A DNA stretch of 64,000 bases from Psococerastis gibbosa (lineage: Eukaryota > Arthropoda > Insecta > Psocodea > Psocidae): contig OZ020489.1 of the NCBI GenBank assembly GCA_963971405.1, positions 33,761,047 to 33,825,046 of the forward strand, written 5' to 3'. The position numbers and the translations under genes were made by a program. The notes beneath the pieces are model-generated. The model did no database searches, was not told the origin of the DNA, and worked only from the letters and a program-made list of their open reading frames with translations. This document shows positions 3,936 through 56,103 of this stretch, one piece after another (positions within the stretch are counted from its first letter, which is position 1; every line of letters begins with the position of its first letter).

Positions 3936-3988
3936 CTGACAATCTGATGCTGTTGCTTATTATTTTGATTTATTTTACTAAGTTATTA

Positions 3989-4189
3989 AATAATGAACCA
4001 GTAGAATCCGGGATGAAATACTGCTGAGCCTCAGAATTACAATCTAGAAATCTACGCAGTTCCACTGAAGATGGCGACCGCAGATGTTGATGAAACGTTA
4101 AGAAGTACGCTTTCAGAACGACTACAGACTATCATCCCGGAGTCTACTGCTTTATCACGTAACACCAGTCTTGAAAGCCGTTGAAATTA
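3989..4189 (+). mobile_element. Short hammerhead-bearing element, 10-bp target duplication
   Basis: TAAGTTATTA flanks the insert (3979-3988 and 4190-4199). It starts with an inverted CAGTAGAATCCGGG, then a unit with CTGAAGATGG...GATGAAACGTT and a CCCGGAGTCTACTGC end. Helix I of the ribozyme is decayed in this copy. Confidence 0.75.
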
Positions 4190-4564
4190 TAAGTTATTAC
4201 AGATTTAGAGTATCCAAGTTGTGGAAGACTGTAATATTTTTAGGTATTAAAAAAAAAAAAAGATTTTAAATTGTTGGTGTTCTAACTTTCCATGAATTAT
4301 ACTCTGGGTAAAATTTAAGCCCCTTTAATATTCATTGAAGAACAGTTGTAAAAAATAAATAATATCAAGGGGCACGTCCACCAGGGCAGGCTTTTAGTGC
4401 TGCCATTCTGTGAATCTATGTGTCCCAAAATTTTTGTCAACCATACGACATATTTGACGTTTACGTCTATAAAACTTTTTCCCTGGTCACAATTATTGAA
4501 ATACTTCCTCGGGACTACCACACCATTATTGTGGCCAATTGGTATTGTAGACGGGCATATCTGA

Positions 4565-5065
4565 TATAAATGTATAAAAATGTTCTGTCCGTTTGTGTAC
4601 GCTTCAAAAACTCAAAAAGTTCTGCACCGATCGAGCTGAAATTTTAGAATGATATATAATCCGCATCAAGGATTGTTTTTATCTAATTTTTGCATCAGTC
4701 ACATATCCGCGACCGCGAAAAGAAAACTATCTCTATCTATATAAAAATGCTTTGTTGGTTTGTGTACGCTTCAGAAACTCAAAAAGCTCTGCCCTGATCG
4801 AGCTGAAATTTTAGCATGATATATAATCCGCACCAAGGATTGTTTTTATCTAACTTTTGCACATCAGTCACATATCCGCGACCGCGAAAAAAAGCGAGGA
4901 AAACACTCGCTGACAACCGCAATAGTAATGGTGCAGTCACAAGCGAAGTCCCGAAGGGGCGAGCTGCGTAATGCCCAATGCGAGGCCCCGAAGGGGCGAG
5001 CTACCGCCCGCTGCAGGCGCAAGGGGTGGAGTCGGGGACCGCTTGTTACGTATATATATGTGTGA
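4565..5065. repeat. Tandem pair of about 167-bp units plus GC-rich tail, Helitron-like
   Basis: TATAAAAATGTTCTGTCCGT and ATAAAAATGCTTTGTTGGTT start two units sharing CGATCGAGCTGAAATTTTAG-type sequence and CACATATCCGCGACCGCGAA. CGAAGGGGCGAGCT then occurs twice in the tail. Such TATAAAAATG...TGTACGCTTCAGAAACT repeats resemble non-autonomous Helitrons; no CTRR end was confirmed. Confidence 0.45.
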
Positions 5066-5512: not shown

Positions 5513-6790
5513 ACTGTAATGTTTACCCTTTAATATTACTAATAAATATTATAACGGAATTTGCCTCTTAACCATGGGATACAGTACCCCCTAAAACCTC
5601 TGCTGAAGATGATATAAGAAACTTCTGCTAGGTGTAATTTGCATTTTGCAAGTTATTGGAATGAATATCAAGCCATTGCTGGAAAAATATAAGAGTTGAA
5701 AATTAGATTCTTCTGAACCGGTGACTATCACATTTTGTAATAAACTGGAACTTAATTCACTATGCTGGAGTCAGATTTTGCGCACCGTTTCCCAGTGTTC
5801 CTGAGAACAGCGAGTTTTCCAAGCACACTCCAGTCTCCAGTTGATGACCGTACCTTGCCAAAGACACTTGTGCCCTACCCGGCTGCGGCAGTATAACTTT
5901 CGTAAATATTCAGTACTGGTAAGTGATACTATTATTTTCAATGAAATAATTTAATATATTTTGTATTTGTACCGATTAATTCTAAGGACTGAAATGATAT
6001 TATTAGTATCACATCATGTTCGAAGCGTTTCCAAATAGCTATCGTACTCATTTAGTACCATCTTCGGGTAATTGTCATTATGAACCGTTTGGGAAGGGGA
6101 CTGCAGCAAAGGTGATTTTGCTTCAGCTTGACTTTTGGCTTGTAGAGAACTAGAGTATGAAACAGAAGGTCGAGTTTTGTGACTCAATATAAGAGGAAAA
6201 TTTTCACCGCACCCTAATGGATACCTTACCTTCAATGGTTGGTAAAAACGCGGCTGCCGGGAATGTTGCTGACAACTGCATTCCAAATAGTGGCCAAAAG
6301 AGAGGATTTGGAAACCTTCCTCAGGCCTCGTCTTCGCTCTCATGCAATGACGTTTTCATTAATTAAAATATAATTCTAGTTATGGCATTGAAAGAAGAAT
6401 AACAACAGACTTTGCTGCCGCTAAGATCACTTCCAAGTAAATGGGGTCTTTTCCGAATTTATGGGCATATTGCTACAGTGCAACTAATACATTGAAGATC
6501 AATAAATTCAGAGTAGTATGCTATCATTTGTTTGCTAGTGGTGTGCAGTAAAATAGAAAATAAAAATGACACAGAGACACCCTTTACCATAACAATGCCA
6601 ATTCCCATCAATCTGCCAAAACAAAACAAAATTTAAAGGATGAACTGCCACACAGCCCTGACTTGACACCTAACAACTTCTTTTTGGGTGCAACTGCTAA
6701 ATGAATGCTTATCAGCCATATTCGACCCCTTGAGATGCGGTAGAGCGTAGAGGTGTTCATAAGGCATGTTTTGGAGGTATCTTATATTAA
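5513..6790. other. No gene seen
   Basis: Apparently unique sequence. The 109-codon minus frame at 6014-6343 has no recognisable domain. Confidence 0.45.
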
Positions 6791-7169: not shown

Positions 7170-7212
7170 TAAGTGGCAGAAATATTATAAAACCTTGTTT
7201 TAGATTATATAA

Positions 7213-7275
7213 TTGCAAAAGCTTTTACGGCCGGAGTTTCGGGATGATAGGCCGTATTCTACTGATTCGTCACTA
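7213..7275 (+). repeat. Tail fragment of the hammerhead element family
   Basis: AAAAGCTTTTACGGCCGGAG and GGCCGTATTCTACTGATTCG match the conserved tail of the elements at 9.6, 37.6 and 50.7 kb. The ribozyme region is missing. Confidence 0.5.
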
Positions 7276-8139
7276 GTCATGGATGCTTCAAAAGTGCGAT
7301 GATCTTGATGTAGAAATATTCTACATGCAAGAAAGACAAAATTTTTTTTTATTCGACGAGATTCCAGATTCATAGCCTTGTTTTAATATGATTATTTTTT
7401 ATTAAAAAAAATTCCTTTGCATAAAGTTAAATTTGTTAGAAAACATTTCACATTGCTCCTTTTACAAAAATGTTAAATTTTAACGTCGGTTTTATAAATG
7501 GGTACGGTACGTCAACACTTGAAGGATTTAGAAAGGTACAACATAACCCACAACGTTAAATTACCTACGGCAACAATATGCGAACCATCAAATTTTCATT
7601 TCACATCAGCTCTTGAATGTATACTCATCAAAAAATCAAAAGCAGATTTTTGAAAATAAATGTTCATCTTTTTACTGTACATTCAATGGAGCATGTAGGC
7701 TACGTTATCCAACTCGTTAACTGGGAAGTATGTTGTATCCAGCAATGACAAATCCAGCCCATTTCGGGCGGAGGGGTGGGGCAGCAAGCACCCGACCCCC
7801 TGTATCCGTCCTTAGCGTCCAGGGGAGTAAGGTGGGCATCCATAGCTCATGCAATGAAACTGAAAAAAATTGTGTTTGAGATTAAGCTTGAAGGTTCTCG
7901 CCATAAGCTAATTACAGTCATAATTAACTATTAAGTTTGCCAGGTCCAGTGCGCAGAACTTACTGCTCCTTATTCTGAGGGCAAGCCTGCTGGATTGTAC
8001 ATTTGTGCTTCTTTTGCCACAATTTAATTTTTTATTTTGGAACCCTGCAAACTCTTCTCTTTTAGAAAACCTTTCGTTTGACCACCTTTGCCGTTTCCTT
8101 TGACATATCCCCTTACGTTTCAACGCTACCGGTATTACT

Positions 8140-8735: not shown

Positions 8736-9100
8736 GACACAACTGTTACCCAATAATAACCTTTGACCTTTCATCGTATGTCATATAATAAGGTTGACGC
8801 CAAAAAGCAGCAATATCCCCAGTTTTATTGAAAAAGTTACCCAAAGAATATTATAGCCCTTAACTTTTACTGCGAACGCTCAGCAGTTGTTATTGGAAAT
8901 ATTATAGGTCTTGAGTTTTCCGCCTAGCAGAAATGAATAAAAGAAAAGCGTGGTAAATGCTGATTTGTGTGAAGAAGAAGAAGAGTGAAGGCTATTTGAA
9001 CACTCTTACAGTACCTTAAAATACTGGGACCTTTTCACTCCCAGACTGCAATACCCGTATTATGATGAATCATGAAACAGTAGAATCCGGGTTGATATGA

Positions 9101-9155
9101 AAGCAAACGTTTCGTCAACATTGGCGGTCGACATCTTCAGTGGTACTACGTAGCC
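9101..9155 (-). ncRNA. Hammerhead-like motif, degraded copy
   Basis: On the minus strand this copy has CTGAAGA, T, GTCGAC, loop, GTTGAC, GAAACGTT. Helix II is intact. A deletion after GAAACGTTTG removes most of the 3' half of helix I. Confidence 0.45.
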
Positions 9156-9250
9156 TTTGCAACAGGTGCCCAGAGACTTCAACTGAAGACTGAGGTGGAG
9201 GCACAACAGCAAACAGTTGCTGTTGAGCCTGTCAGATACAATCATTGAAG

Positions 9251-9310
9251 TCTACGCTGTTACACTGAAGATGTCGCCCGCATATGTTGATGAAACGTTT
9301 GGACGTACGC
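9251..9310 (+). ncRNA. Hammerhead-like motif, degraded copy
   Basis: It has CTGAAGA followed by TGTCGCC, a loop, GTTGAT and GAAACGTTT. Helix II carries a mismatch and a wobble pair, and only short outer helix I pairing (TACG with CGTA) remains. Confidence 0.4.
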
Positions 9311-9559
9311 TTTCAGATCGACCACGGCCTATCATCCCTGATTCTACTACTTCATCAGTGGCTTCCCGTTGCATTTAGCATCCTTTTGCCGTTGATTCCT
9401 CCGTCTTTCGCAGCCCCAGAAAAAAAAAAAATAGTGCCCTGCTCAGAAAAGGCTGTGTTGTTTGCTTATACTAGGTCCGCTACTGGTCAGTCGCTATTAC
9501 GCGCTTCCATCTTCAACACGATGAGGTACAAATTAGGGATTTTGGCGTCTTCGCCTTTG

Positions 9560-9770
9560 AGACCATAAGGCGTTACTCAGAAGCTCTTTGAAAACGCTGA
9601 GCCTCCGAGTTACAATCTTTGAAGCCTACGTATTGCCACTGATGATGTCGACCGCAGATGTTGACGAAACGTTTGGAAGTACGTACTCAGATCACCCACA
9701 GCCCATCAGCCCGGATTCTACTCTGCTTCAAAATCAGACCCCTTCCGCGAAAGCCTTTGTAATTATACGA
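9560..9770 (+). mobile_element. Short hammerhead-bearing element, best-preserved copy
   Basis: This copy keeps the upstream GCTGAGCCTCCGAGTTACA region, the ribozyme-like core (9627-9685) and the CAGCCCGGATTCTACTCTG tail. No clear target duplication was found. Confidence 0.6.
9627..9685 (+). ncRNA. Hammerhead-ribozyme-like motif with canonical core
   Basis: Helix I outer TACGTA (9627-9632) pairs with TACGTA (9680-9685). Inner CCA (9636-9638) pairs with TGG (9674-9676). Core CTGATGA is at 9639-9645, then one extra T. Helix II is GTCGAC/GTTGAC (9647-9652, 9660-9665), followed by GAA and the minimal helix III ACGT (9669-9672). The cleavage site would follow T9673. Such short, palindromic helix III hammerheads are known from Penelope elements and work best as dimers. 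The extra T before helix II is the main doubt. Confidence 0.6.
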
Positions 9771-12841: not shown

Positions 12842-13226
12842 GGCGCCCATTCCACTGACCAGCTAGAGCTATTTACAAAAACGGTGACGTGGTAGCAGAC
12901 ATTCAAGACTTAGGTGACGTTTCCACCGACCTCGCATTGCAGAGTGCAAATGACATTGACGGAAATTAGAATTTTTCTTTTTATAGAAATCTATTAAAAT
13001 GTTTGTACTTCACATATCCCATGACGCCATTTTTTAATTTTAGTTTGTTTGTTTGTGATTTTACTGTAGGATCATTGATCAATTTTAACTATGGCATAGA
13101 GGAAAATAAACATTTCCGTCAATTCTGCAATGCGAGGTCGGTGGAAACCCCGCCTAAGTCTTGAATGTCTGCTACCACGTCACTGTTTTTGTAAATAGCC
13201 CTAGCCGGTCGGTGGAATGGGCGCCT
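12842..13226. mobile_element. Fold-back MITE, family G
   Basis: Same family; both terminal GGCGCC motifs intact. Confidence 0.8.
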
Positions 13227-13859
13227 AAATAGTACCATATTTCATGTGTTATATACAGTAGCTAATGAGAGCAATATACATATGTTATGACGTAGTCTAT
13301 TCTATTATTCTTCGTGATATAATGGAATAAATACAATACGACATACCATACAGAATGCTCATAAAGAAAATTCATGGCAAATAGGAAGTAATACGTATAT
13401 ATACGTATATGTAAATTAACGTAAGGAATTGCTGTCTGATAATGTGATGTATTCTCAATATTTGTGAAAGCATTCCTCTGTTCCTGAAAATGTATTACTA
13501 TCTGTGACCTTGAAAGTGCTTATGAATGGAAACTTCGGCAAATGCTCCATTTTATAGCCTGTTTGTATTGCAATATACTCAGTGGAAGATTTTAGAATTT
13601 ATTAAGTAACTACGTACACTGAGGCAACAACTTCCTATATACTATCACGCAGGAAATAGGGCGCTGTACTATACGTTAATAAAATTGTTATTCTATTGGC
13701 TGGGTACTTATTTCCCTGGCTTAGTATAAGCCAGTTAAAGAAGTCCCCAGCCAATAGAATTCGTAGAATAGGCTAGTTAAATAAGTCAGGCTTACCTGTA
13801 TTTATGTTTTAATGTGCAAAACGTTTTGTTTGGTTTTAAAATTGTAGATATAGGTTTGC

Positions 13860-21970: not shown

Positions 21971-22150
21971 CAGCAGCCTGATCGAGGCGATTATAATACC
22001 GGGGTTAAATAAATACCCTAGGATTATAACTGTAAACAAACAAATTTTGAATAGCACTTTCCCTTAGAAAATTATCTTGTTTACATTTTTAATAGCAGGG
22101 AATTAAATAAATACCGGTATTATAATCGCCTCGATCAGGCTGCAGGCTGC
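21971..22150. mobile_element. Short fold-back element, family F
   Basis: CAGCAGCCTGATCGAGGCGA with its inverse, GGGTTAAATAAATACC arms, and a centre matching the 12.5 kb copy. Confidence 0.75.
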
Positions 22151-24249: not shown

Positions 24250-24560
24250 AAGTTGCTCAGGAGACAGAGGGCTGAAATATTGAGGTTTACCACAATTTGA
24301 GAACAAGAATGCTTACCTACATATTACAAAGAATCAATACAATTATGGACAAGGGAGGCCCGGGGGTCTCCCCCGGGAGAAAAAGTTTGAAAAATAGGGC
24401 TGAAATAGTGAGATTTTGCGCATTTTGAGAGCAATAGGGCTTATATATTAGAATGAATCAATTTAATTGTGGGCAAGGGGGGCCCGGGGGTCACCCCCGG
24501 GAGAAAAGTTTGGAAAAATAGGGCTGAAATAGTGAGGTTTTGCGCATTTGAGTGCTGTAA
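24250..24560 (+). repeat. Tandem duplication, period 124, GC-rich hairpins
   Basis: GGCCCGGGGGTCTCCCCCGG at 24357 and GGCCCGGGGGTCACCCCCGG at 24481, each a perfect short hairpin, followed by AATAGGGCTGAAATAGTGAG. Confidence 0.75.
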
Positions 24561-25359
24561 CACTTAGATTTTAGAGGCAAAGACTATAACTGCCTTCCAA
24601 AGGGGGGAGGGAGGCGATAGCAGGTCGCTTCGTCAGCCTCTGGTGAAAGTTGCAACCTCCTCTAAAATTCATAAATCTACCTACCAGCATTGCAGGAAAA
24701 AAAAAATAACACTATTTCCCGCCAATTTTAAAACTTTTAATTTCTAATTTTTTTTATATTTTAATCTAAAAATATCTCATTTTGGGGGGCCGGAATTTTA
24801 GACATTTCTGGGGGGGGGGGGGCCGGGGGCCTGTGCCCCAAATGCCCAAGGGGTTAATCCGGCACTGCTGCTGAATCTTAAAATCTTTGAATGGATGGAA
24901 ACTCTCTGCCCTCCAGTGCTGAAAGTTCCCCAAAGCTTTTGTTTACCCTGCACTTCTCCCCCATTTCGCGTTGTTCGGGGTACCAGACAGAACTTTGACC
25001 AGTTCAAACTAGGGAATCTGTTCTTTGGTGAACATTTTCCAGTTCCGTCTTTGAAATACTAGTTTGTTTAGCACTGACAAATAGATACTTATTACATTTT
25101 GAACGTAACTATTGGGTAGCAATATCTGAACATACAATACTGAGACCCTTTTTTAATAAAGTCTAATAAGAATGGAACGCAGTGAAAGTTTTCTTCGATT
25201 TTATAAATATTTTTAGCCTATATGCAAGTATGCAGGTATTGTACATTGGAATAAATAAAATATTTCAATGTATTTTAATTATTCATCAACCACTTTTGAA
25301 TGGCAACCTCGGAGGAGCGTATGTCACCGATACCTATTCGTGCCTAAAGTGTATGTGTT

Positions 25360-28996: not shown

Positions 28997-29049
28997 ATAG
29001 CCTACCGAGGCAACCCGTGGTAAGGGTGGAGCAAGCGCCGAACACCTCA

Positions 29050-29215
29050 TAAATAATTAGATTACTCGTGACTTCGTGGTATTTCATTTTAATAAACAAA
29101 AAATAACAAGTGGGTTTCTTAGACAAAGTTAATTTCTTAACGATTATTTGGGTTTTACTAAATCGGGTTGTTATAACAAGTTCTTCTAAAACAGTTTTTG
29201 TTATTTTTTGTTTAC
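29050..29215. mobile_element. Mini Penelope insertion with 12-bp target duplication
   Basis: CCGAACACCTCA flanks both sides (29038-29049 and 29216-29227). The insert starts with the inverted 3' terminus of the pLTR, then switches to a sense pLTR fragment from AAGTGGGTTTC to TTTTTTGTTTA. The two parts form a partial fold-back. It is a dead-on-arrival copy of the same family as the 40.6-44.5 kb element. Confidence 0.85.
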
Positions 29216-29316
29216 CCGAACACCTCACCTATTTCCAAAAATCAGTTTAATATTCTGGGCCGGCAATGCCGACCGTATCAGATATTAAGCTAATAAGAAC
29301 AGATACTACACTTTGA

Positions 29317-29400
29317 ACTCAACACGGGTACCAACCTACAGAGGCGACTGAAGAGGTCAATCGGATACATTCATTAAATTGTTTGTTTGCGATTAATCTT
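29317..29400 (+). repeat. SINE-C tail fragment
   Basis: CTCAACACGGGTACCAACC and GGTCAATCGGATACATTCAT match the 3' part of the family. Confidence 0.55.
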
Positions 29401-37400: not shown

Positions 37401-40400
37401 TTTTAATACATAAAATGTATACCTTGATACTATTTTCATTTTCCATTCATATTTCACAAATGCTAAAATTTTATTTCAAAAATTTCATATGGTTGTCCAG
37501 ATTTATTTACGCACAGACCTTGAATCAATGCCATAATTGATTAAATTAAACTACAAATAAATGAAGAATCAGTAGAATCAGTAGAATCCGGGTCGAAATG
37601 AAAGCGAACTTCATTTCGACCACGGCCCATCAGCCCGGATTCTACTGATTCTTCATTTGACTCCGGGCGTGATAACCTTTGCTGTTACATTACAAATAAA
37701 TGATTCAAACCATATACTGTGTATACAGCTCATAGGCAAATTACAGCATGCAGCATATGTACAACATATGCAGCATATTCTCAGAAATTCCTAGGATTAT
37801 TGGACAATTGCTCATTAGCTTGTTTCAGCTTGTCCATTATTACTTATACTTGGCGTAGGTTGACATCGAGGACGCATACCAGTTTACCATACGGAAACAA
37901 TGCAAATATTTTCAGAAATACATGAGGTCGTTGGCATTGGACAGGGGACCTATGTGCCAATAAAGGTAGGCTAGGGTCCATAAAAAGTCCTTCAGGACAT
38001 TATTACTACTACCTAGGCAACTGATAATTACTGGTACTTAAAACACCCAAATGATCATTTTGTGTCTGGACATCGAGCACGCATACCAGTTTGCCACTAG
38101 CCAAATTTGCATACGGAAACAATAAAAAGAACGTCCGAAATCCATGGGGTCGTTGGAGTTTACAAGGGACATATGGGCCACTATAAGTAGGGCCTACTCC
38201 ATAAAAAGTCTTTCAAGACATTATTACTACTACCTAGGTCACTGATAGATGGTACTTAAAAAATCCAAAAGATCATTTTGTGTCTGGAAATGAATTAGCT
38301 TAAGGCACCAAGTCTATTAAGTTCTAAAGTGGCCATCCCAAAGTTTGTACGTGACTGAAACAAGCAACGTTAATACGCTTCAATCGCTCCGAAAAGGCAA
38401 TTTCAACTTCTATGCTGCAGCCTTTATTGCGTAGCCCACCCAAACAAAGGGCAAGTCAATACTGGGGCATGAAAGGCAAATAATTAACATAGGCTAACGT
38501 TCAAAACAAATTCATTAGTCCGTCCGTTGATTACTTACCAGCAGGTCTAGCAAGGAACGATAAAAATAACTTATCCGGGAATTAGATTAAATTATTCTAA
38601 ACAAACCACAATGAATGTAAATTTACATACGGGAGTTAAAGTGGAAAAATTAGTAGGCCTACTGCAGATTGTTTTGTCAACAGAATTGAAGCATATATGC
38701 CTAGTTTTGCCTGAAATCTAGTGGTACCAACATGACAAAAAATGCAATTTCGTCTACTTTGAAGCGTGTTATTTTTAAAATAGTATTATAACGGTTTAAG
38801 TAATTCCCCGGGTAAGTTATTCTTTCCGTTTGGTGCTAGGTCTGCAGGAGTACATGAGGCTGAACCAAGGATATCAAATTGAATAAATGGCCCCAAGCCG
38901 AAAGTTAAGTATTACCGATAGCGATGAAACGTAGGGAGAAATTTTCTGCGCATTGTATTCGCAATCTAACAGCTTTCTTTTGGCGGCGTTTCCATTGACC
39001 TCGTATTGCAGAATACATATGACGTTGACGTGGTAGCAGGCATTAAAGACTTATTAATGGTGTCTGCTACCACGTCAACGTCAAGTGCATTCTGCAATAC
39101 GAGGTCAATGGAGATGCCGTCTTTCACTGCATTAATTTAATATGATTTTTTTTTCATAAGGGGCGAATTTTGGACCTTCCGGCCCACTCTCATTAGTAAC
39201 CCAAAATAAATAATACTAGGCCTAATTAATTATATATTAAAATTTTAACAAAAAAGTTAATATTAAAATTTATCACTGAATGGCCACGAACACACTTTTA
39301 TAATAAATAGGGGTGACTCTTTTAAATTTATTAAACTTTTTTTTTCATTTCTGATGGTGTCCTGCAGAGGGTCTCATCGCCTGCATGAACTAAATCATTA
39401 TAATATTAACTTATTTATTCATAATTATAATGAATTAAATGTTAAGCAATCTGTAACTTTAAAACATTGACTGCATCGCTCTGCGGGTCTACTATTATGA
39501 CCAGATTACTTTTAGGCTCTTCTGCAGTTCGGGATGAGAACGGGACAGTATTGGAAGGCAAAGTGATAATTTAAGATTTTTCTCTTGCTACAGGTTGGGA
39601 TTGATCGCCATAATATAATAGGTCCATAGAAATATGTATTTAGTCTAAAAGGGACATTTTTGTAATATTTTCCCAAATAAATACAATACATAAATTAAAT
39701 TAAAAAAAATAACAATCGATTCATCTAGGCATAGTCATATACTCATGTATACTCTCGACGGCCCTGTTCTTAATACAAGTAATTGTAACAATATCCCATT
39801 CATTGCACCGAGAAATACAGTGACGGGAAATTGCAGAAAATAATGATTAGAGGAAAACTTGAGAAATTCACCAAGAGATAAAATCATACCCTAGGGATTA
39901 ATAAAAAAAGATGGCAAGGATGCCATGGGAAATCTCTCGCAATCAACAAAATATCAAGATAATATTTTATTATTGAACAAGAAAATAACATTCATCATTT
40001 TTCTCTCTCTTATTAATAACTCAACTTGACATATAAATGTTCAATTTTTCCAATTTTGTCGTATTACATAGGTAATTACAAAGACTTTCACTACCACATT
40101 CTACTGCTTTACTAATGGGTACAAATGGTATCATAGGGGGCGCGGGAAGAGCATCAAAGGGGCGCCACTTTGGTCCTCATTGCTAGTTTTACATTAAATA
40201 ATATGAAATATATATATATAATGAAATATAATGCATTTTAAGTTATTGAACTTAACTTTTATACGGCTCGCTTCCACCAACTTTCAAAAATCTTTCCTTC
40301 GGTGAAAGCTGCTGTCTGCATCTTGATTTTCCCCACTAAATTTTTATTAAAAGATTTTATACTTTACTTCTCGTTATGGGTTAGTTGTAAGAGTGGGCCG

Positions 40401-43400
40401 AGAGACCCAAAATTCGCATGGAAAATAAAGACAATGTTCTTTCTTCCTTTCTCCTATTTTTTTTTCGAAAGCGTCTGACCAATGACATTATGTTTTTTGA
40501 GCAAGGGAGCAGGGAGAAGAGTCCCTTTAGCATTTATGTGTCGTCTTAACCGCTCGACCACAAGCCCGACAAGTACAGTCTGTGCAATCACCTCTAAAAC
40601 CTCTACTTATGCACTTATTGACAAGCTTCGTAGTGCTAGACAGGTTAGGACAAATAAACAAAAAATAACAAAAACTTAGAGTTTTAGAAAAATTTGTTAT
40701 AACAACCCGAATTAGTAAAACCCAAATAATCGTTAAGAAATTAACTTTGTCTAAGAAACCCACTTGTGTTAGTATAAAACCCTGAGCGCTTTCGGCAAGA
40801 ACTGCCATCTATCTATCTATCTATCTGCCTCAAGTATTGCCCCGATATAGGTCTAAACAAAAACACGTTAACCAACTTAATGTCAGACACTGAATTTAGC
40901 CTAAAAAACCACAATAATGAAAAACACATAGCAGCAGACATTCTGAAAAACGTCAAAATTACACACAAAAACGATAACACTAAATCTATAAAAAAGAAAC
41001 TAGCCCAAGATAACCTTACACTCACCAAGGCGGATAAAGGAAATTCTATTGTCATTTTACCTACCCATGATTATGTTTCTAAAGTCTTAGACCTCATTTC
41101 TGATGAATCCACATTCGTAAAACTTAAAGTAGACCCCACAAACAAATTCCAAAAAGCAACCAAAAAAGCCATTAAACAAAGCTCTAATACGATACCCCAA
41201 GATATAGCCTATAAATTTACCAACATGAACCCCGTAGCTCCTTCATTTTTTGGTCTGGTTAAACTTCATAAACCCAATCAACCTATCCGCCCAGTAGTTT
41301 CGTATAACAGTGCCCCAGCCAGCAAAGTAGCTAGTTTTCTCAACAAACACATTCGCGAGCTATCAAACTTCACACCCCGCCACAGCGTCAAAAACTCATT
41401 CGAGTTGGTTTCCCGCCTTAAGCGTCTTTCCTTATCCAGCAATGCCAAACTCGTCTCTTTCGATGTCAAAAATCTGTTTACTAATATTCCCGTACCCGAA
41501 GTACGTAAATTAGTTGCCCAGTCACTCTATCACAATAATACCTCAAACAGCCTTATTTCTGAGACACTCCTTCTGTTAGACACATGCACTCATCAAAACT
41601 ATTTCCGTTTCGAATCCGACTACTACCAACAAAAAATAGGCTTACCTATGGGTTCTTCCCTTTCTCCCCTTCTTGCTGAAATTTTTATGGATAACTTCGA
41701 ACACAAACTTCTACTCAATAAAAATCCCCTAGTTAAATGTATATCTTTCTGGACAAGGTATGTGGATGATATCTTCTGCATTTGGACAGGAAGTAACAGA
41801 CAACTAGACAATTTCTTAAGTTTTATCAACACAATTCACCCAAAAATCCAATTTACCATGGAAGTAGAAGAAAACAACTCCCTGAACTTCTTAGACCTCA
41901 CCATCACCAAAAATAATAGTACCCTAGACTTCAAGATATTTCGTAAAGAAACCCATAGCGATAATATAATCCCTGTTGATTCTTCTCACCCATTCCAGCA
42001 CAAACACGCAGCATTCCATAGTATGATTTTTCGACTCCTTAACATCCCTATAAATAATTAGATTACTCGTGACTTCGTGGTATTTCATTTTAATAAACAA
42101 AAAATAACAAAAACTTAGAGTTTTAGAAAAACTTGTTATAACAACCCGAATTAGTAAAACCCAAATAATTGTTAAGAAATTAACTTTGTCTAAGAAACCC
42201 ACTTGTGTTAGTATAAAACCCTGAGCGCTTTCGGCAAGAACTGCCATCTACAGAGGGAAACCCACTAGCACAGTTACACCTTATCTGCGATTTGAGACTT
42301 GCTCAACTCGAGGAGAAGATGCAAATGTGACTAGGGAGAGGAAACCTTGGTTTATATAGGACTGGGAGCGGGGGGAGGAGTTTAGCCTAAAAAACCACAA
42401 TAATGAAAAACACAAAGCAGCAGATATTCTGAAAAACGTCAAACTTACACACAAAAACGATAACACTAAATCTATAAAAAAGAAACTAGCCCAAGATAAC
42501 CTTACACTCACCAAGGCGGATAAAGGAAATTCTATTGTCATTTTACCTACCCATGATTATATTTCTAAAGTCTTAGACCTCATTTCTGATGAATCCACAT
42601 TCGTAAAACTTAAAGTAGACCCCACAAACAAATTCCAAAAAGCAACCAAAAAAGCCATTAAACAAAGCTCTAACACGATACCCCAAGATATAGCCTATAA
42701 ATTTACCAACATGAACCCCGTAGCTCCTTCATTTTTTGGTCTGGTTAAACTTCATAAACCCAATCAACCTATCCGCCCAGTAGTTTCGTATAACAGTGCC
42801 CCAGCCAGCAAAGTAGCTAGTTTTCTCAACAAATACATTCGCGAGCTATCAAACTTCACACCCCGCCACAGCGTCAAAAACTCATTCGAGTTGGTTTCCC
42901 GCCTTAAGCACCTTTCCTTATCCAGCAATGCCAAACTCGTCTCTTTCGATGTCAAAAATCTGTTTACTAATATTCCCGTACCCGAAGTACGTAAATTAGT
43001 TGCCCAGTCACTCTATCACAATAACACCTCGAACAGCCTTATTTCTGAGACCCTCCTTCTGTTAGACACATGCACCCATCAAAACTATTTCCGCTTCGAA
43101 TCCGACTACTACCAACAAAAAATAGGTCTACCTATGGGTTCTTCCCTTTCTCCCCTTCTTGCTGAAATTTTTATGGATAACTTCGAACACAAACTTCTAC
43201 ACAATAAAAATCCCCTAGTTAAATGTATATCTTTCTGGACAAGGTATGTGGATGATATCTTCTGCATTTGGACAGGAAGTAACAGACAACTAGACAATTT
43301 CTTAAGTTTTATCAACACAATTCACCCAAAAATCCAATTTACCATGGAAGTAGAAGAAAACAACTCCCTGAACTTCTTAGACCTCACCATCACCAAAAAT

Positions 43401-46400
43401 AATAGTACCCTAGACTTCAAGATATTTCGTAAAGAAACCCATAGCGATAATATAATCCCTGTTGATTCTTCTCACCCATTCCAGCACAAACACGCAGCAT
43501 TCCATAGCATGATTTTTCGACTCCTTAACATCCCTATGAATCAAACCAACTATAATAATGAATTAAATACAATAAAACAAATTGCCCAAAATAACAATTT
43601 CAATCTCAACCTAATAGACAGAATCCTACGACATCACAAAATCAAACACAACCTCAAACTAATTTACCCCCCAGGGAGCTTAAACCCGGTAACCAATAAA
43701 TCATATTTCAGGATACAATACATAGAAAAAATCACAGAAAAAATTAGTAACCTCATTTCTTCTACAACAGACAAAACACCAGCCCCGTACAATCGCAACA
43801 ATTTAGCCAATAAACTCATGAACTGCAAAACCAAACCAGAAAAATAAAAAGGCAATGGAGTTTATCGTCTAAATTGTAACGATTGTAACGCAATTTACAT
43901 AGGCCAAACAGGCAGAAGCTTTAAAACTAGGGTCAGAGAACATATAACAGGTATAGGAGACACCAACACCAACAGCACATTCGCGAAACACCTTAACTCG
44001 GAAAACCACACATTCGATCCTCACAATTGGACAGCCCTACACAAAATAAAGAAAAGTTACACTTTAAATTTTTTTGAAAATGTTGAAATCAAAAGAGCTT
44101 TACACAATAGGGAAAAATTAACAAACGACATAACATTCACACAATCATCCCCTCTAATAGATCTAGCTAGTAGGTTAGGAATAGGTAACCAGCCACGCCC
44201 CCTCCCACCCCCTCCTCCCCCCGCTCCCAATCCTATATAAACCAAGGTTTCCTCTCTCTAGTCACATTTGCATCTCCTCCTCGAGTTGAGCAAGTCTCAA
44301 ATCGCAGATAAGGTGTAACTGTGCTAGTGGGTTTCCCTCTGTAGATGGCAGTTCTTGCCGAAAGCGCTCAGGGTTTTATACTAACACAAGTGGGTTTCTT
44401 AGACAAAGTTAATTTCTTAACGATTATTTGGGTTTTACTAATTCGGGTTGTTATAACAAGTTTTTCTAAAACTCTAAGTTTTTGTTATTTTTTGTTTATT
44501 AAAATGAAATACCACGAAGTCCCGAGTAATCTCATTATTTAGGTTAGGACAGCTACACAACTATCTAACCGAACAGGTCTGTGAGCTTACTTGATTTTAT
44601 TTATTTTATTGATTTATTGATTAAAGGCAATGCTTTATTCAATACCTACTACAATGAATTGCTCGCAAGAATTTTCCAACTCGAATGGGGTCCATTAAAT
44701 TGATTTCCCCCCTTCTGCCGCTTCCCTACACAGTGCAACCCCTGCTTGGAAATGACTCCTCGACATTCCGTCCTCAAGTCAACATCTTCCTTCTGAATAC
44801 TCTGAGGAGAGCCTATGGCTTACAACAATAATATAAGCGCGGAAGCCCAAAAGCGCAAAGAGGCTATTCATTAAATATGATTAAATTCTTTTTTATTTCT
44901 TTCCAGCACTGGTCGTTCGATTCATCACTAAACGATACATTGGAGAATATGATCCGAGCCTCGAGAGGGTGTATAATTTTCAAGCTACTATAGACAATGA
45001 AACTGTTAATTTTGAAATTCTGGACACTGCTGGACAGCCTTATGTAAGTAAAAATTGATTTGAAAAGAAAAATTATATATTTGTAATATACTTTATTATT
45101 TTTAAATCGCAATAATTAATGAATGCATCGGATAACCTCTTTAGTCGCCTCTGAATAGTTAATACCTGTGTAGAGTTACAGTTGCGACATGTCTCCGATC
45201 GCATACTATAAACATACTGGGTAGACAGACTTCCATAAGTACGAGAAAGCTACCTACCATGCCAACTTAGGCCGTAAATAAATTATATATAGACCTATTA
45301 AATATTGTATAATGTATAATATAGGTATTCTCTTCTGGGTCTATAATTACACGAAGACAAGGCTGAAAGCGTTAGTTAGGAAGGACCTTTATAGAAAATG
45401 GCAAGATTTACTTAGATGTTATAATGGAACAAATGGTTCAGAAGCTGGAGATTTTGCTTGAAGAAGTAATAGGAGGTTTTATACTTTTTTTTACTCTTGA
45501 AGCAGAAACTTCTTTTTGTGAACCCCACTACTATTATATATACCTCCTTAAAGTTGAGAGCTTACGGTTCTGCCACCAATAAAATTATTTTCGCAGTATG
45601 AAAATACAATGACCACTGCTGTCGCAGAATAGATCAAGTGACGAAATACGTACTGTTATAGAAATTGAGTAAACAAGTTGAGATAATTGCTTCCTAATCC
45701 AAAATTCAATAAAAAGCTCAATTGGAAAGCATTTCCGTCAGTAAATTTATGCATGAGTTCGTATTGCGCAATTTACTATATCGTATTGCTTCGAATCAAA
45801 ATAATTTATTGGATTAGGGAAATAATGGAACAACATTGCTATATACAAGACATGTAGCGTAGTGGTACGGACTCTGACTTCCACCCAAAAGGTGGTTGGT
45901 TCTAGTCCCACACTGGCTACATTTTCGGGCCATGCTTCGGAGGGCATGTAAAGCAGGTGGTCCCGGGCCTTCCTAGTTGAGTGTATTGCCCTAACTCCGC
46001 TAGGTTGGCTTAGTAATAGAAACAATAAAAAGTCCTTATTTATTTATATATAATATATATATATAGAACCGAAATTAGAGGATATGGAAAAAAACTGGGC
46101 TTGGCGGGATTCGAACCCACGATCTGCGCCTAACCGGGGCGTCGTCTTAACCGCTGGACCACAAGCCCTAATTTCGGTTATAACGAGGAGGTTACCTCTT
46201 CAACCAAAGTTAATTTAATGTCAGTGTTATATATACCATATAATACTACAATGTATTAAAAAAAATATATAGAATATATATTTAGAATTAGAGAGAGGAA
46301 AAATGGACGGAAACGAGATTTGACCCAGAGTCTGCAGTATGCCGGGAGGTACAGGTATTATTTCAGAAAAACCCGATAATGAATAACAAACCAATTTCAT

Positions 46401-49400
46401 AGAATGACTTCGATGCCAGAATAGTAGCTTGTTCTTACTTGTGCGTGAGTCTCTACACATCATGTGATCGGTGACCTGTCGTAACTCAACACAGGTATTA
46501 CCTACAGAGGCTACTGAAAAGGTTATTCGGATACATTCATTGAATTGTGTGTATGCAAATAATCTTTTTATAATAAATAAAAAAATAGAGATATATTCGT
46601 ATAGGGGAAGTAGCAAGACAGCTTTTAGAGAAAACTTGCGTTTTTATGAATTTTTCATCTGACCACTTTCATAACACACAGTCAAATCTTGTTAATAAAA
46701 TATTTTCAAATCTCTCTCTTGACTTTTATTTGATACTTTTCCAGGAATACGAGCATCAGTCCTTGGAAACTCATATACGGTGGGCTGAAGCCTACATCCT
46801 TATGTATTCCGTAACGGATAAATGTTCATTTGATGAATGCAGCCGACTAAAATTCCTCATAAACTACAATAGGCGGCGGAGAAAACTTGGATCTAAAGTA
46901 CGTATGTAAAGCAGGGCTTTCTAAAGTTTCTAGAATAATTGTGATGGAAATTTCTAGAACCTTGAATTGAATTAGGAACGATAGAGCTTTAGTTGCAAAT
47001 GTAGTTTAAACTTTCGTAAAGTAAGTATTTAAACTTTTAAGCCGAAACATTAGGTACGGTTCAACAATAGTTATGGTAAGGTACGTTTCTCATTAGTCGA
47101 AAATGAGATAGTCTACCAAGCTTATATCCAACCTCAAAGTGCTTATAAGTAAACTATGACGCAATCAACAGTCATCGTACAAATCGTACTCATTGTTCTA
47201 GGACCATACCTATGCTGATATTCCGGTGTTACTCGTTGGAAACAAAACCGATCAGATGGGGGATCGAATGATTTCTCAGGAAGAGGGAAGGCGACGGAGT
47301 CAGGAAATTGGTTGTGTCTGCTTTTACGAAATATCTGTGCGGGAGAGCGTTGAACAAGTAAGTTGCTATTTGCCGGAGGTAGTAGGTACCATTGGGTGAA
47401 AATGTGTCATATATCGTTCAAGTGCGGGAGAGCGTTGAACAAGTAACTTGCTATTTACCAAAGGTAGTAGGTACCATTGGGTGAAAATGTAAAATAAATC
47501 GTTTGAGTGCGGGAGAGCTTTGAACAAGTAACTTCCTATTTGCCAGAAGTAGTAGGTACCATTGGGTGAAATTATGACATATATTGTTGGAGTGCGGGAG
47601 ATCGTTGAACAAGTAAGTTTCTATTTGCGAGAGGTAGTAGGTGCCATTGGGTGAAAATGTGTCATGTATCGTTCGAGTGTGGGAGAGCGTTGAACAAGTT
47701 TATATGGTAGCGTGTTTGTACTTGTGCGAGTCTCTACACACTTTGCGATCGGAGACGTGTCGTAACTCCATACAAGTACCTATTAGGTTACATAGTGAGG
47801 CGATTGAAGAGGTTAATCGGATACATTCATTAAATTGTTTGTAAGTATGCGATTGACCTTTTTGTAAAAAAAAAAACTAAAAACTAAGTGGCTATTTGAT
47901 GCCAGATATAACATTGGGTGAAAATGTGAAATATTGAAATATATCGTAGGAGAGCGGGAGAGCATCGAACAAGTAAATTGCTATTGACAGAGCTAATTGG
48001 AAAGTCGTAACCAGAGGGACCGAATGTGGGACCTCAGGTTATAAAAAGAAGGCGAACTAGGTTACAATAAGCCGAAAGCGGCAGTAAATGCTACGTAACC
48101 CGGCTGATTTTCACATTGAAAAAAATAAAATAAAAATATGTCTGCTTCCTTAACTCTATAGAAATACAGTATACTAGTAAATTATACGTGATCTCCAACT
48201 TTTCAAGTTGACCTACTTTGGGGATCGAAAACCGTATGAGGGTATTTGTCCCACGCACAACCCAATTTTCAGTTGGTAGCTGATACAACTCCATCACTCA
48301 TCCAAAATTCATTAATCACCCTCAATGTGAAGGGCATGATATCCGCGGAGCAACCACAAAATGACGATACATCGCAATTTATAGACACTTGGGATAATAG
48401 TTCAATATTAATAGTTGCTACTGAATCCTCCTACAGCCCGATCATGGTGATTTGGGATTATTATAATACCGGGGTTTATTTGTTTAATCCCGCAGTAGTA
48501 AGGTATCACGTGACGGTGTTAAAATATGCGCGGGAAATCCAATTAATAAATTATTGGAACACAAGAGAATAGTTGAATTTTTTAATAATTGAAAGAAATA
48601 TTAATAAACATTAAAACGTAAAGGTAGAATTTTGAATTATAAAAAGAATTTTAATTAATGTGCCTATATCTAAGGGAGAAAAAATTTAAAACTCACCAAA
48701 AATATTAATTTATCAATTTGAATTACCCGCGCATTGTGCACCCATTTGTTTAAAACAATTGAATAAACCCCGGTATTATAATAGTCCCAAATGGCCATGA
48801 TCGGGCTGCAGAATAGTTAGATTTGGTACTACAATACTCTAAGCCAGTGGTCGGCAACCCATTCCATTTTAATAATAAAAAGGTACAAAGATTCAGAATG
48901 GTACTAGAAAAAAAGGACTCACAACATCGACGGTATATATACACTTTCATATTCAGTGGCGGAGCTTGGGATTATTGCAGTGGCGGACACAGTTTTTTTA
49001 TTTTGGTGTAAACTGAGAATAAAAACAATACGGTACTTGATTTAAGTAACTGATTTCATTTTTCCGGACATTACCTACTGGTTGGTACATACAAACCCAT
49101 TTAAAGATGTATTGTATTACAATAACACTTTTCATATTCCTTGTTTAAAAAAAATCAAGTTGTCATTTTTTTAATTTTTGTAGGGGGTCATGACCCCCAC
49201 TGTGTCCGCCACTGGATAATTGCGTGTGTAATGCTCGCAAATATTTAATTAAGTTAAAAAAAAACACGCATATTCATCATATTCCTTAATGCATCGTGTT
49301 TGATTATATTTTAGGTGGCTGAGGTATTCAGAGACACTTGCAGATTTTGGCGAGTCCATTGCAAATTTCCAAAATTGAAAAGATCGTCGAGTGACGTGCG

Positions 49401-52400
49401 TAGTAATGTTATAATGAGCCCCGAGAGTTGCTCCTCCAGCCTATCAGCTTGGGCGGATAGTTCTCCTTTAACATCAGGTGGGTAAAATTGTGGGGGCGCT
49501 ATGAAATATTTTATGGGGGTTTTCATGGCGTCTTTAAAATATTATGCGTCTTGACATATTTTTCACGATCCTCGAGTTACCCGAATTATTAAAGTATCCC
49601 ATTCATTGCCCTGTACGCTCCATCTGCTGAAGTCAAGAACCTTATCGAGAAGATGCAAGGAAATAATATGTCGAACAATAACATAAATAATTAGATTACT
49701 CGTGACTTCGTGGTATTTCATTTTAATAAACAAAAAATAACAATTGTTATTTTTTGTTTATCGAACAATAATCCGACCAGTCGTAACCTATGAATGGGTG
49801 TGAGGCATGGGTAAGGTGCCCATTCCACATACGTACAACGTCAATGAAAATTATGAAATTGAAGGGCATTTCAATTTTACTCTATGCCATTGTTAAAATT
49901 GATCAATGATCAATTGATAATAGAGTAAAATCACAAACAATGAAACAAACAATCTAAAATTAAAAATGGCGTCATGTGATATGACAAGTACAACTATTTG
50001 AATTGATTTCTCTAAAAAGAAAGCATTTCTGTATAAAAATTATAATAAGGATTAAATAATAAGGCGACGAAGAAAAGAAATACAATTTCAAGAAACAAAT
50101 TTCAAAAATTTGGCGCATACGCTTCAATTGAAAATTGTCAATTTTTGAAAAACATATGGAAGGCCCCCATCAATGAGAAATTGAAATGTCCTTCAATTTC
50201 ATAATTTTCATTGACGTTGTACGTATGTGGAATGGGCGCCTTATGACTCGGAGGAGCGAGGAGCTGCTTGAAAGGTGTACGGACTGGACCAGAAATCAGA
50301 GAGAGAGTGGCGTATCCGTAGAAATGACGAGCTCTACGTGATATACCGAGTACCTACGAGAGTAGCCGAAATCAAGAGAGCCCGCATCAGGTGGCTGGAG
50401 CAGTGGAACGAATCCCAGAAAATAGGGCTACAAGAGCAGCCTTACCCAAGGTTCCCCTCAAGGGAGAAGACGAGTGGGACGACCACGGATGTGATGGCTG
50501 GACGATGTCGAGGTGGATTTGGTGACCCTTGGCTTCGATGACTGGCGAAAGAGAGTGCAGGCTGACACGATGTGGCAGAGCAGGCAAAGGCCCTTCAGCG
50601 CCAAGGAGTAAGGTATTCATTGCTCCGCATAAAGTCCTAAAAGCAATCCTTCGTCAATATAATAACGAAGGCTTTCACGGCCGGAGTCTAATAAGGGGAC
50701 AGAATAATCCGGGCTAATAGGCCGTGGTCGATTTGAAAGTAGACTTCCAATCGTTCCGTCAACAACTGCGGTCGACATCTTCAGTGGCACTACGTACACT
50801 TCTAAGGCAGTATCGCGGAGGTACAACCTTAGAAATCCTTCGTCAATCAAATACACCGTACTCGTAAAAATAAACCCATTCCTATAGCAATGGTGCTGAG
50901 TATTATGCTGTTGAAGAAATCCTGTATTTAAGGGACTCGGTCCGTGTGATAATAATTAATAATTAATAATTAATTGATACTCGGTGGGCAATTAATTCTG
51001 ACCAATGCTTTGGGATAGGAAAATCGAGCAAGGTGACAAGCTCTCCTGCGAATTTCAATTTCCAAGTAAGTAAGACCGACGGAATAAGGCCCATATTCCA
51101 AACAATTGAAACTCGGATGCTTTGGGAAATGGTAAATCGCTACAGCAGATTATTTGAAAAATAAAATGATTGAAGCAATCCGATACGCGCATACATTGCA
51201 TTGCTGGAAATCGAGGGGACACAGTGTTTCGCGTCTTTTAGCTGCTGGTCAGAGACTATAATATTTTGTTGTCGATTTTTTTTTTTTTTCATTTCAGACA
51301 CAACCAGTAGTTGGTCGGAGAGCTCAGATTATTGCCTATTTAGGGAAGAAGAAGAAGATACTTACAGTGAAGAATTACCACCGTTTAGGGGTCGAGCCCA
51401 GACTGACGGATTACTAGCCAGGTAATAGAATAAATAATGAAATTGTTATTAAGGTGGCCATTCCACCAGCGAATTTACTTGAAAAATTGACTTTGTCATT
51501 GACTTTTGTTTTGTTTTAAGGAGACTATTATGTAGATACTTAACTTATCTATTTTAAATTAAGTTATGTGGTAGCAGGCATCATTAATAAGTCTCTTTAA
51601 AACAAAACAAACGCCAATGACATAGTCAATTTTTCAAGTAAATTCGCCGGTGGAATGGCCACCTAAATACCACTCCGACTGTCCAAGGCAGCTATCTATC
51701 TATCTGATGGTTTAATTAGTTTTCGCGGTCACGCGCATGTACGAGTTATTGTATATAATCGTATCCCAAAGCGTGGGCAGTATACGATTGTCGGATTTAC
51801 TGTATAAATTTTGTATTTAGGTAACGGCAGTTGGTCAGAGTCCCCCTATACAGGCAGGATGTAGGTATGCTAGTCATGTAAATATATTGCCTGTTTGTTA
51901 TAATTATTACTAAGCGTACCTAGCAGAATTAGGGCTATAAAAAAACCCTCTCTTACCCTCAACTAGGAAGACACGGGACCAACTGCTTTACATGCTCTCC
52001 GAAGCATGGACAGAAAATGTAGCAAGTTTAGGACTCGAACCGACAACCTATTGGGTGAAGGCGGAGTCCGTACCACTACTCTATATGTCCTGTCATGTAC
52101 AAATGATGTAGGGTAGGGTACATTTTTTCATACAATTTTTAAAGGAAACTCATCTATTGTATTGTATGACATTTCCAACATTATCGGCGAGCTTATTTTG
52201 GATTTCGGCGTGTATTTGCGCAGAGTAGTGGGTTCCCATCCACGTTAGGTACTACAAAACTTAATAGAAGAAGTAGAAATCAACAAAAAAAAGAGAACCA
52301 AGGATGTGTTACACTGTTGCGTATTCTAATTTTTGCAGAGAAGGTTTATAAAATAATGGTTTTATAACATTCTTCTATAAAAAATTTCATTTTCCAATTA

Positions 52401-54039: not shown

Positions 54040-55389
54040 TTAGTCCTGGTCAGTCAGCAGGTCCCGTAAAAACCTGCACAACTGCCCAGGGGCCAACTGG
54101 CAAGCCTCCCTTGGTGATAGAAACCAAGAGGACGTTGCTAGCAGCCGTCTGTTCTTTACTGCCGGACACGAGCAGATGATATGCTCAGCAGTCTCAGCCT
54201 TTTCTTTGCAGAATCGGCAGGTGTCATTCAAGACTTTACCCATGTTCTTTAAATGGTAGTTCACGTGGCAGTGTCCTGTGAGTGCACCTGTAAGTACCTT
54301 AAGTTCAGGCTTGCTGAGGTTCAGTGCTTTGGCGGTATAGCTCTTAGAGTGAGTGAGGAATATTTTGGATTGTCTGTGGCCTGTGACAGACTTCCAGTAT
54401 GCTTCCTTTCTCTTTTCTTCCCATAGGCCAATCTCTAGGGTTTGGCGGTTTCTCGGGAAGGCGCAGAAGGGTTCAGGCCCAATGAAGGGTAGCGCGCTCC
54501 CTTCTCTCGCCAAGGCGTCGGCATTTTCATTGCCTTCGATCCCGGCGTGTCCTGGAACCCACATGAGGGTGACTTTATTCGTCACTCCCAATGCGTTGAG
54601 TGCAAGCATACATTCCCACACCTGCTTGGACTCGTAGCTACTCGAGTCCAGCGCAAGAAGGGAAGCCATGCTGTCGGAGATAATGAATATCTTGCTGTGG
54701 CGGTAAGCACGTTTAATGCAATGCGCCGCACATGCGCGTATGGCATGTATTTCGGCTTGGAAGACTGTGGGTTGGGATCCCATGGGGATGACTAAGTTGA
54801 GTCGTGGCCCATAAACCCCCGCCCCTGTACCTCCGTTTTCTATTTTTGACCCATCAGTATAAAATCTTAATGAGCCGTATGGAAAGACTACCTCTCCGTC
54901 AGTCCATTTTTTCCGGCTTTCCAATATAACCGAGAAATTCTTTGAGAATTGAAAAGTTGTCTCCATGGAGTCTGAGAACATAACCTCCGGAACCTTGCAC
55001 TCATTAAGAATGCGTAAGTGTCCGGTAAGGTCGCCAGGCTTTAGTCCATGGCTTTTCTTAATGCGATAGGCCCACTTAGCTGCCTCACTCTCGATGAAAA
55101 TCGGGAGTGGTGGTAGGTTCAATAGGACCTCCATGGCAGCCGTGGGGCACGAACGGGATGCTCCCGTGATCGCGAGGCAAGCCAGCCTCTGTAGTTTGGT
55201 GAGAGATTTTGCTCCCTTTTTGCTCTTATGCAGTCTAGGCCACCAAATTAGCGCCGCATAGCTAATTATAGGTCGCACAATGGACTTATATAGCCAGTCC
55301 GTTACTTTCGGCTTAAGCCCACCATTCTGCTCGTAAGAAATAAGGCGTTTCGCGCCCTGCTTACAGCCTGGTCCAGATGCAGGCTCCAT
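54040..55389 (-). pseudogene. LINE RT thumb, RNase H and C-terminal zinc-like domain
   Basis: This 449-codon frame starts in the RT thumb (KVTDWLYKSIVRPIISYAAL), followed by RNase H with its four acidic residues visible: YTDGS, FQAEIHAI, ISDSMASLLAL and GNENADALA. WVPGHAGIEG is also present. The end has CRFCKEKAETAEHIICSCP, the Cys/His motif common after RNase H in this LINE group. It is intact after the upstream frameshift, so the insertion is fairly young. Confidence 0.85.
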
Positions 55390-55865
55390 GTGAGCTTCCG
55401 GTCAAGGATAACACCAAGATATTTGGTGCTATCTGTGAGGGCTAAACGCACCCCGCTGAGGGTGGGAGCTTTAATATTAAGCTTCAACTTCCTCGTGAAC
55501 GGGACCAGGGTGGTTTTTTTAGGATTTATATTCAGTCCTTCAGAAAGGCACCAATTATGGGCTATGGTTAAGGCCCTTTGCATTCGCTCAGAGACAAGAG
55601 CGTCATGCTGGCCTCGCACCAAGATCACCAAATCATCCGCATAGCCGCAGACGTCGTACCCATCTTGCCCTAGTGCAGTTAGCAGCCCGTCGACCACCAG
55701 AGACCAGAGGAGGGGGGAGAGGCATCCGCGTTGTGGGCAGCCCTCACCTGGCGTGGCTGTGATCGAGTCTGTGCCGAGTACCATTGAGATAATTCGGCTT
55801 TCTAGCGATGTCATGATCCAGTCTGCTACGACTGGCTCAACGCCTCTCTTTTCTAATGCATTCAT
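55302..55865 (-). pseudogene. LINE reverse transcriptase, central part
   Basis: This 187-codon frame has GCPQRGCLSPLLWSLVVDGL, the catalytic CGYADDLVILV and TKYLGVILDRKLTW, all RT palm and thumb motifs of I/R1-type LINEs. The fingers and motif A are missing (5' truncation). A frameshift in the 55302-55389 overlap separates it from the RNase H-bearing frame. Confidence 0.8.
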
Positions 55866-56103
55866 GATTGATCTGATTAGGTCTCCCTAGGAGACCTAAG
55901 GGTGGCCGTTAGACGACTGCTCTACCGTAGGAAGCAGTCCCTATTTCTGGTTTCATAAGTATGGGTATCACCTGATCTGGGGGTGGGTTTTTCCACAGGT
56001 GTAGTAATATCTTCAATATATATAGAGCGGGTGGATAGACCATACCAAATTCCCTAAATAAGAAACTCTTAGATGAAAAAATGTGAATACTGAAAACAAC
56101 CAC

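Follow-up and report, generated by a model that had tools for sequence, protein, structure and literature searches.

A short, mostly decayed repeat family with a minimal hammerhead motif in Psococerastis gibbosa, probably a Penelope-type pseudo-LTR unit

A family of short repeats whose hammerhead motif is genuine was identified in a 64,000-nucleotide stretch of the Psococerastis gibbosa contig OZ020489.1, the whole of which is called the window below. The family probably represents a Penelope-type pseudo-LTR unit with a minimal hammerhead, and its copies are best read as decayed, non-autonomous elements that resemble pseudo-LTRs and were moved by enzymes of the Penelope type. The short family is a mostly decayed example of an already described kind of element. 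Its copies, named by their position in kb, are as follows.

3989..4189, plus strand: copy 4.0, hammerhead at 4065-4099
7207..7280, minus strand: core-less copy 7.2 with tail, inverted arm weakly matched (E 0.068)
9062..9157, minus strand: left inverted arm of the 9.1/9.25 pair, hammerhead at 9106-9140
9220..9365, plus strand: copy 9.25, the direct arm, hammerhead at 9265-9299, core intact, helices decayed
9595..9767, plus strand: copy 9.6 with 3' tail
37565..37690, plus strand: core-less copy 37.6, inverted left arm joined to 3' part and tail
50659..50833, minus strand: copy 50.7, hammerhead at 50750-50784, two core changes

The core-less relative that the sequence-only reading had noticed near 37.6 kb is confirmed at about 37.57-37.69 kb, and the copy at 7207-7280 is a further core-less one beyond that reading. 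A regular-expression scan for CTGANGA...GAAAC identified 4065, 9265 and 9639 on the plus strand and 9109-9140 on the minus strand, together with the diverged form at 50750-50784 (minus strand). The longer form CTGANGA...GAAACGTT is present at 4065-4099, 9265-9299 and 9639-9673 on the plus strand and at 9106-9140 on the minus strand. All five copies align in hammerhead order, and the CUGANGA and GAAA core with A15.1-U16.1 (11 bases) is kept in four of them. The core sharing first read in five copies thus holds for four and not for the 50.7 copy, which reads GGAACGAT on the minus strand, with A13 and U16.1 altered. An extra strict core match at 5603 has neither a stem II nor CGTT after it. To gauge chance, a scan required the exact core and, after 0-1 inserted nucleotides, a stem II of 4 bp or more that is paired throughout with no more than one G-U. 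It found two matches in the window, 9.6 and 9.1, whereas 30 first-order Markov sequences averaged 0.07, although one of them likewise yielded two; the two window matches belong to one family and are counted once. The core together with helices I and II is intact only in the 9.6 copy, one of the five, whose motif is laid out below.

9627..9685, plus strand: hammerhead motif of the 9.6 copy, helix I 5' strand 9627-9638 and 3' strand 9674-9685
9639-9645 (CTGATGA), 9646 (extra T) and 9666-9669 (GAAA), plus strand: core
9647-9652/9660-9665, plus strand: helix II
9669-9672, plus strand: helix III, an ACGT palindrome, with the predicted cut after T9673

The helices are preserved to different degrees among the copies. 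Standard pairs fill all six positions of helix II in the 9.1, 9.6 and 50.7 copies and five of six in the 4.0 and 9.25 copies, which restricts to three copies the 6-bp helix that had been assigned to all; the base of helix II changes from G-C to G-U in two copies. For helix I of the 9.6 copy, a two-part pairing around an internal loop had been proposed; the pairing is present and in fact better than claimed, with 11 of 12 positions paired and a single G-A mismatch, and the loop disappears. Pairing of 11/12 at the same spacing was reached at 7 of 20000 random window spots. Helix I is broken several times in the four other copies, among which the 9.1 copy has 8 nt of the 3' strand deleted and the 4.0 copy has lost the first two pairs. 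Across the copies, the majority letters form pairs at nine of the first 10 helix I positions, the exception being a G-G mismatch, and at 6/6 positions of helix II; only the 9.6 copy extends the pairing of helix I to positions 11 and 12.

The pairing was further evaluated by its register and by covariation. In register, 77.8% of the cells are paired, compared with 25-48% after sliding by 1-3 columns, in a test that depends on a structure read from these same five sequences. The compensatory changes anticipated by the sequence-only reading are not seen among the five copies, in which no pair is changed on both sides (0-2 in the slid registers), a comparison of little power with five decayed copies; against shuffled 3' letters, the pairing shows no excess, and the shuffles are as good or better. 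Pairing peaks in register, yet two-sided changes number zero and no excess over shuffles exists; the copies are thus consistent with the decay of a once-paired ancestor and not with covariation. The ribozyme block (core, helix II with its loop, and helix III; gapped columns dropped) has 27 of 35 columns invariant among the four long copies, compared with 48 of 102 elsewhere (Fisher p 0.003), while the columns of helix I by themselves are no better conserved (11/24 against 37/78 elsewhere). The support for a ribozyme comes from the majority-letter pairing, the stronger conservation of the block and the 9.6 copy.

Secondary-structure prediction gave folds of varied resemblance to a hammerhead. 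For the native 64-nt stretch of the 9.6 copy, the minimum-energy fold includes helices I and II, with added pairs within the core and the extra U paired to G12; the strict hammerhead structure lies 2.4 kcal/mol above it, with an estimated ensemble weight of about 0.006. The minimum-energy fold of the 50.7 copy has helix II and part of helix I, and those of the 4.0, 9.25 and 9.1 copies contain no hammerhead. Because these energies omit the tertiary contacts of the hammerhead, they are weak evidence either way. Among the five motif-bearing copies, the 9.6 copy alone looks competent.

The covariance check with Rfam gave no match above threshold on the window sequence. With E values up to 5 allowed, the full window yielded no hammerhead, the 9600-9720 segment reached 13.7 of the required 48.5 bits with the type III model, and the motif of the window's Penelope-like element (see below) had no match whatever. 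In both the short family and this Penelope-like element, one extra U follows A9 and precedes helix II. Insertions elsewhere in the core reduce hammerhead activity according to PMC3088659. The same extra U occurs in an IMG/VR viral contig (L014), where two hammerhead-like stretches, 12920-12954 and 13280-13314 on the minus strand, lie 360 nt apart. The unconstrained fold of both is a complete type I hammerhead with the extra U unpaired, and the pairing of helix III is retained between the two via one-sided changes; Rfam lists neither of them at E up to 1. Because these stretches fold completely with the U, yet are omitted by Rfam, neither the extra U nor the silence of Rfam would argue strongly against a ribozyme, as far as predicted folds can tell. 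In the viral contigs, a generic pattern gave 15 matches in 14 stretches, L014 holding two of the matches, and the other 13 stretches have a helix II of at most five contiguous pairs; a narrower pattern again gave L014 and no other match.

The anatomy of the short element consists of units whose 3' part ends in CCCGGATTCTACTG, a tail and inverted arms. A tail of about 45 nt is located at the outer end in five copies (4.0, 7.2, 9.6, 37.6 and 50.7) whereas a profile search detected none in the arms of 9.1 and 9.25; the profile was built from six of the copies, and its new finds are only the 7.2 copy and the inverted arms. The left arms repeat the 3' part in inverted orientation; they are clear at 9.07-9.36, 37.6 (E 4e-5) and 4.0 (E 1.5e-4), with none above chance at 50.7 kb (E 2.2). 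Together, the 9.1 and 9.25 copies make up a single inverted repeat, one arm each, and the junction of the inverted arm at 37.6 kb is a short palindrome. The complex at 9.06-9.77 kb is composed of an inverted arm, a direct arm, an insert of about 230 nt, and a direct arm with tail, so arranged that the two direct units begin 374 nt apart with other sequence in between. None of the tandem arrays in the window overlaps any copy. Family-specific DNA patterns had 0 matches in the viral contig and genome contig collections, and no description of the short family was found among the listed open-licence papers, which were searched by words.

Other repeats of the window were observed alongside. The tandem arrays lie at 47337-47699, 4573-4890 and 24268-24606, with periods of 85, 167 and 124 nt, respectively. 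The 9357-9395 stretch resembles 1670-1709. Within 1650-1830, the 5' part resembles 9356-9395 and the 3' part recurs at about 2.1, 6.8, 7.1, 12.8, 13.2, 21.4 and 21.8 kb.

Clear direct repeats flank three of the six insertions of the short family. The 4.0 copy lies between 10-bp repeats TAAGTTATTA (3979-3988 and 4190-4199, 201 bp between), the 37.6 copy between 13-bp repeats TACAAATAAATGA (37552-37564 and 37691-37703, 126 bp between), and the 50.7 copy between 14-bp repeats (50645-50658 and 50834-50847, 175 bp between). These 10-, 13- and 14-bp repeats, noticed by eye first and tested afterwards, were matched or beaten by 2, 1 and 0 of 3000 random flank pairs, and with wider flanks they were matched in 2, 1 and 0 of 300 random pairs, respectively. 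The 9-bp repeat flanking the 7.2 copy is unconvincing (67/3000 random pairs). Neither alone nor in combination did 9.07-9.36 and 9.6 show a target duplication; a single joint insertion of 9.06-9.78 kb was rejected, its exact duplication being just 5 bp and its gapped one at chance (150/2000). The short family inserts like a retroelement, as its duplications, shared tail and inverted arms display.

A Penelope-like element resides in the same window, with hammerhead-like motifs in its ends.

42052..44540, plus strand: Penelope-like element with RVT_1 (frame 42360-43844) and GIY-YIG (frame 43848-44237)
40653..42055, plus strand: second, truncated Penelope-like copy, joined to the 42052..44540 element
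44339..44363, plus strand: hammerhead-like motif of the right terminal repeat (CTGTAGA, extra T, helix II of 5 bp, GAAA)
42229..42253, minus strand: same hammerhead-like motif, left (inverted) terminal repeat

The RVT_1 and GIY-YIG frames are separated by a stop, and the ends of the element are inverted repeats (42052-42380 versus 44212-44540) of 98% identity. The whole insert, 40653-44540, is placed between 11-bp direct repeats AGGTTAGGACA. Two Penelope-like end fragments, 29038-29227 and 49671-49771, have direct repeats of 12 and 11 bp, and the former adjoins a U2 snRNA-like stretch (29206-29348, minus strand). The 11-, 12- and 11-bp repeats of the three Penelope-like insertions were matched by 2, 1 and 0 of 300 random pairs. 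Of the 706 relatives of the Penelope-like protein, 120 were listed; in this list the animal names are all those of insects, and one entry carries the label of a bacterial metagenome assembly.

Both ends of the Penelope-like element read CTGTAGA-T-GGCAG/TTGCC-GAAAGCGCT, with A6 changed. Helix I is CCCT/AGGG, and GCGCT follows GAAA, so that the AGCGCT palindrome forms helix III; the minimum-energy fold has helices I and II formed and the extra U paired to G12. The two copies of the motif are near-identical and are counted once. Because 1.9 matches are expected per random window when one core mismatch is allowed, the argument from this motif leans on its helices and on its presence in the terminal repeats at both ends. 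The motif is probably weak or dead since A6 is changed; an A6C variant is of low activity according to PMC3088659. No similarity between the short family and the terminal repeats of the window's Penelope-like element was found by blastn at E up to 1e-3. Likewise, tblastn with the 120 listed of 706 Penelope-like proteins revealed no coding remnant beside any short copy, the lowest E there being 0.076 (9515-9622). A search for Penelope protein loci found none in the viral contigs, and in the genome contigs 33 stretches matched a pattern, none of which was confirmed.

Further features of the window include the remains of a second retroelement at 54043-55886 (minus strand), whose named relatives are from mosquitoes, a psyllid and leafhoppers among others; its segment 54043-55401 matches RNase H and, weakly, zf-RVT. 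A frame at 57354-57830 (plus strand) matches THO complex subunit 1 (Pfam efThoc1, E 2.7e-39) and is part of a host gene. Long imperfect inverted repeats at 38978-39124, 21971-22145 and 51451-51666 match microRNA families with scores short of the gathering cut-off; these are probably transposon hairpins, not microRNAs.

The target duplications, the shared tail, the inverted arms and the ribozyme layout of the window's Penelope-like element fit a non-autonomous retroelement of the Penelope type. On these grounds the earlier proposal of a non-autonomous retroelement that codes for no protein and carries a minimal type I hammerhead of the Penelope type is supported, and its predictions of covariation and an Rfam match fall. 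We infer cleavage, dimer action and mobilisation in trans as the steps by which the short family moved. A multi-unit transcript would be cut by its hammerhead ribozymes, for which two units may pair via the palindromic ACGU helix III; the RNA would then be reverse-transcribed at a cut target by a Penelope-type reverse transcriptase with a GIY-YIG endonuclease, both supplied in trans. Insertion at the target site would leave the 10-14 bp duplications, and self-priming or template switching may produce the inverted left arms. The Penelope-like protein of Anolis inserts in vitro without the need of hammerhead cleavage (PMC11167929), which argues against cleavage as a required step. A narrower form of the proposal, in which the family is a satellite of Penelope-like elements made of the pseudo-LTR only, moved in trans by the Penelope reverse transcriptase and endonuclease, with a minimal dimer-type hammerhead that processes its transposition RNA and has an inserted U after A9 in common with the helper, strikes us as rather doubtful; if true, the family would be the direct Penelope counterpart of the retrozyme. 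The locus by itself is an ordinary decayed repeat. Together, the short element and its Penelope-like neighbour offer a small system for asking whether the ribozyme or just the pseudo-LTR is needed for mobilisation.

The copies could also be decayed solo pseudo-LTRs of an autonomous Penelope-like family, with the body deleted or never copied and with no separate non-autonomous lineage. This account, which overlaps the preferred one and differs only in the origin of the short copies, is a real possibility, to which we give somewhat less than even weight. It predicts the same anatomy, solo pseudo-LTRs are reported in PMC3846280, and the 9.06-9.77 kb complex repeats the order of pseudo-LTRs published there. 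However, no Penelope coding trace is found beside any copy, and clean direct repeats border the three copies that measure 126-201 bp, whereas the several solo pseudo-LTRs in PMC3846280 are said to be without target duplications. Because of these clean flanking repeats, the 126-201 bp copies seem to have been inserted short, not deleted later.

An animal retrozyme, that is, tandem repeats of about 170-400 nt with a circular RNA intermediate moved by Penelope or LINE enzymes, would likewise be short and non-coding with a type I hammerhead, and two direct units begin 374 nt apart. Penelope-like elements are proposed as its mobiliser in PMC7229834. Such an origin is unlikely, as the direct units are separated by other sequence, no copy is overlapped by a tandem array, and the type I hammerheads of PMC7229834 are canonical, in contrast to the ACGU-palindrome helix III observed here.

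Inverted ends related to CAGTAGAATCCGGG at 4.0, 9.07-9.36, 37.6 and, weakly, 7.2 kb would suit a terminal-inverted-repeat DNA transposon (MITE) with an accidental internal resemblance to a hammerhead. We rejected this very improbable origin because the sequence runs beyond the inverted repeat into the shared tail and the flanking repeats (10, 13 and 14 bp) are not of fixed length; the inverted arm at 50.7 kb does not rise above chance, and conservation is stronger inside the ribozyme block than outside it. A chance resemblance in a repeat family without any ribozyme history accords with the missing covariation, the sub-threshold Rfam score and the decay of four of the five copies, but is hardly credible given the exact core, 6-bp stem II and 11/12 helix I in the correct order and the similar layout in the neighbouring Penelope-like element.

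Several described systems can be compared with the short family, which is probably a Penelope-type unit. The rotifer Penelope described in PMC3846280 has two direct and one inverted pseudo-LTR, duplications of 8-10 bp and an optional 31-bp tail; palindromes at its inverted junctions are attributed to self-priming, and unrelated DNA is captured between its pseudo-LTRs in trans. Like these pseudo-LTRs of Adineta vaga, the short family has direct and inverted units, a tail at the outer end, short duplications, a palindromic inverted junction and non-coding sequence between units. Its duplications are longer (10-14 bp versus 8-10 bp), and it carries a hammerhead, whereas the account of the pseudo-LTRs in PMC3846280 makes no mention of hammerheads. 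The resemblance to the animal non-LTR retrozymes of PMC7229834, for which Penelope-like elements are regarded as strong candidates for the mobiliser, lies in a short, non-coding, non-autonomous element with a type I hammerhead; in contrast to them, the short family forms no tandem array and its hammerhead is minimal, not canonical.

Also close are the minimal type I hammerheads that the pseudo-LTRs of Penelope-like elements carry (Cervera and de la Pena 2014; Lunse et al. 2017). Minimal type I hammerheads are scattered by the thousand through many animal genomes; some of them sit in Penelope pseudo-LTRs, and those dispersed elsewhere may cleave as dimers (PMC7761336); their presence in the pseudo-LTRs of Penelope-like elements is also described in PMC6155905. 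Unlike these hammerheads as described, the short family has the extra U between A9 and helix II and no coding body beside its copies. It shares with them the CUGANGA and GAAA core, predicted helices I and II, a helix III made of a short palindrome, a pseudo-LTR-like location and dispersed copies.
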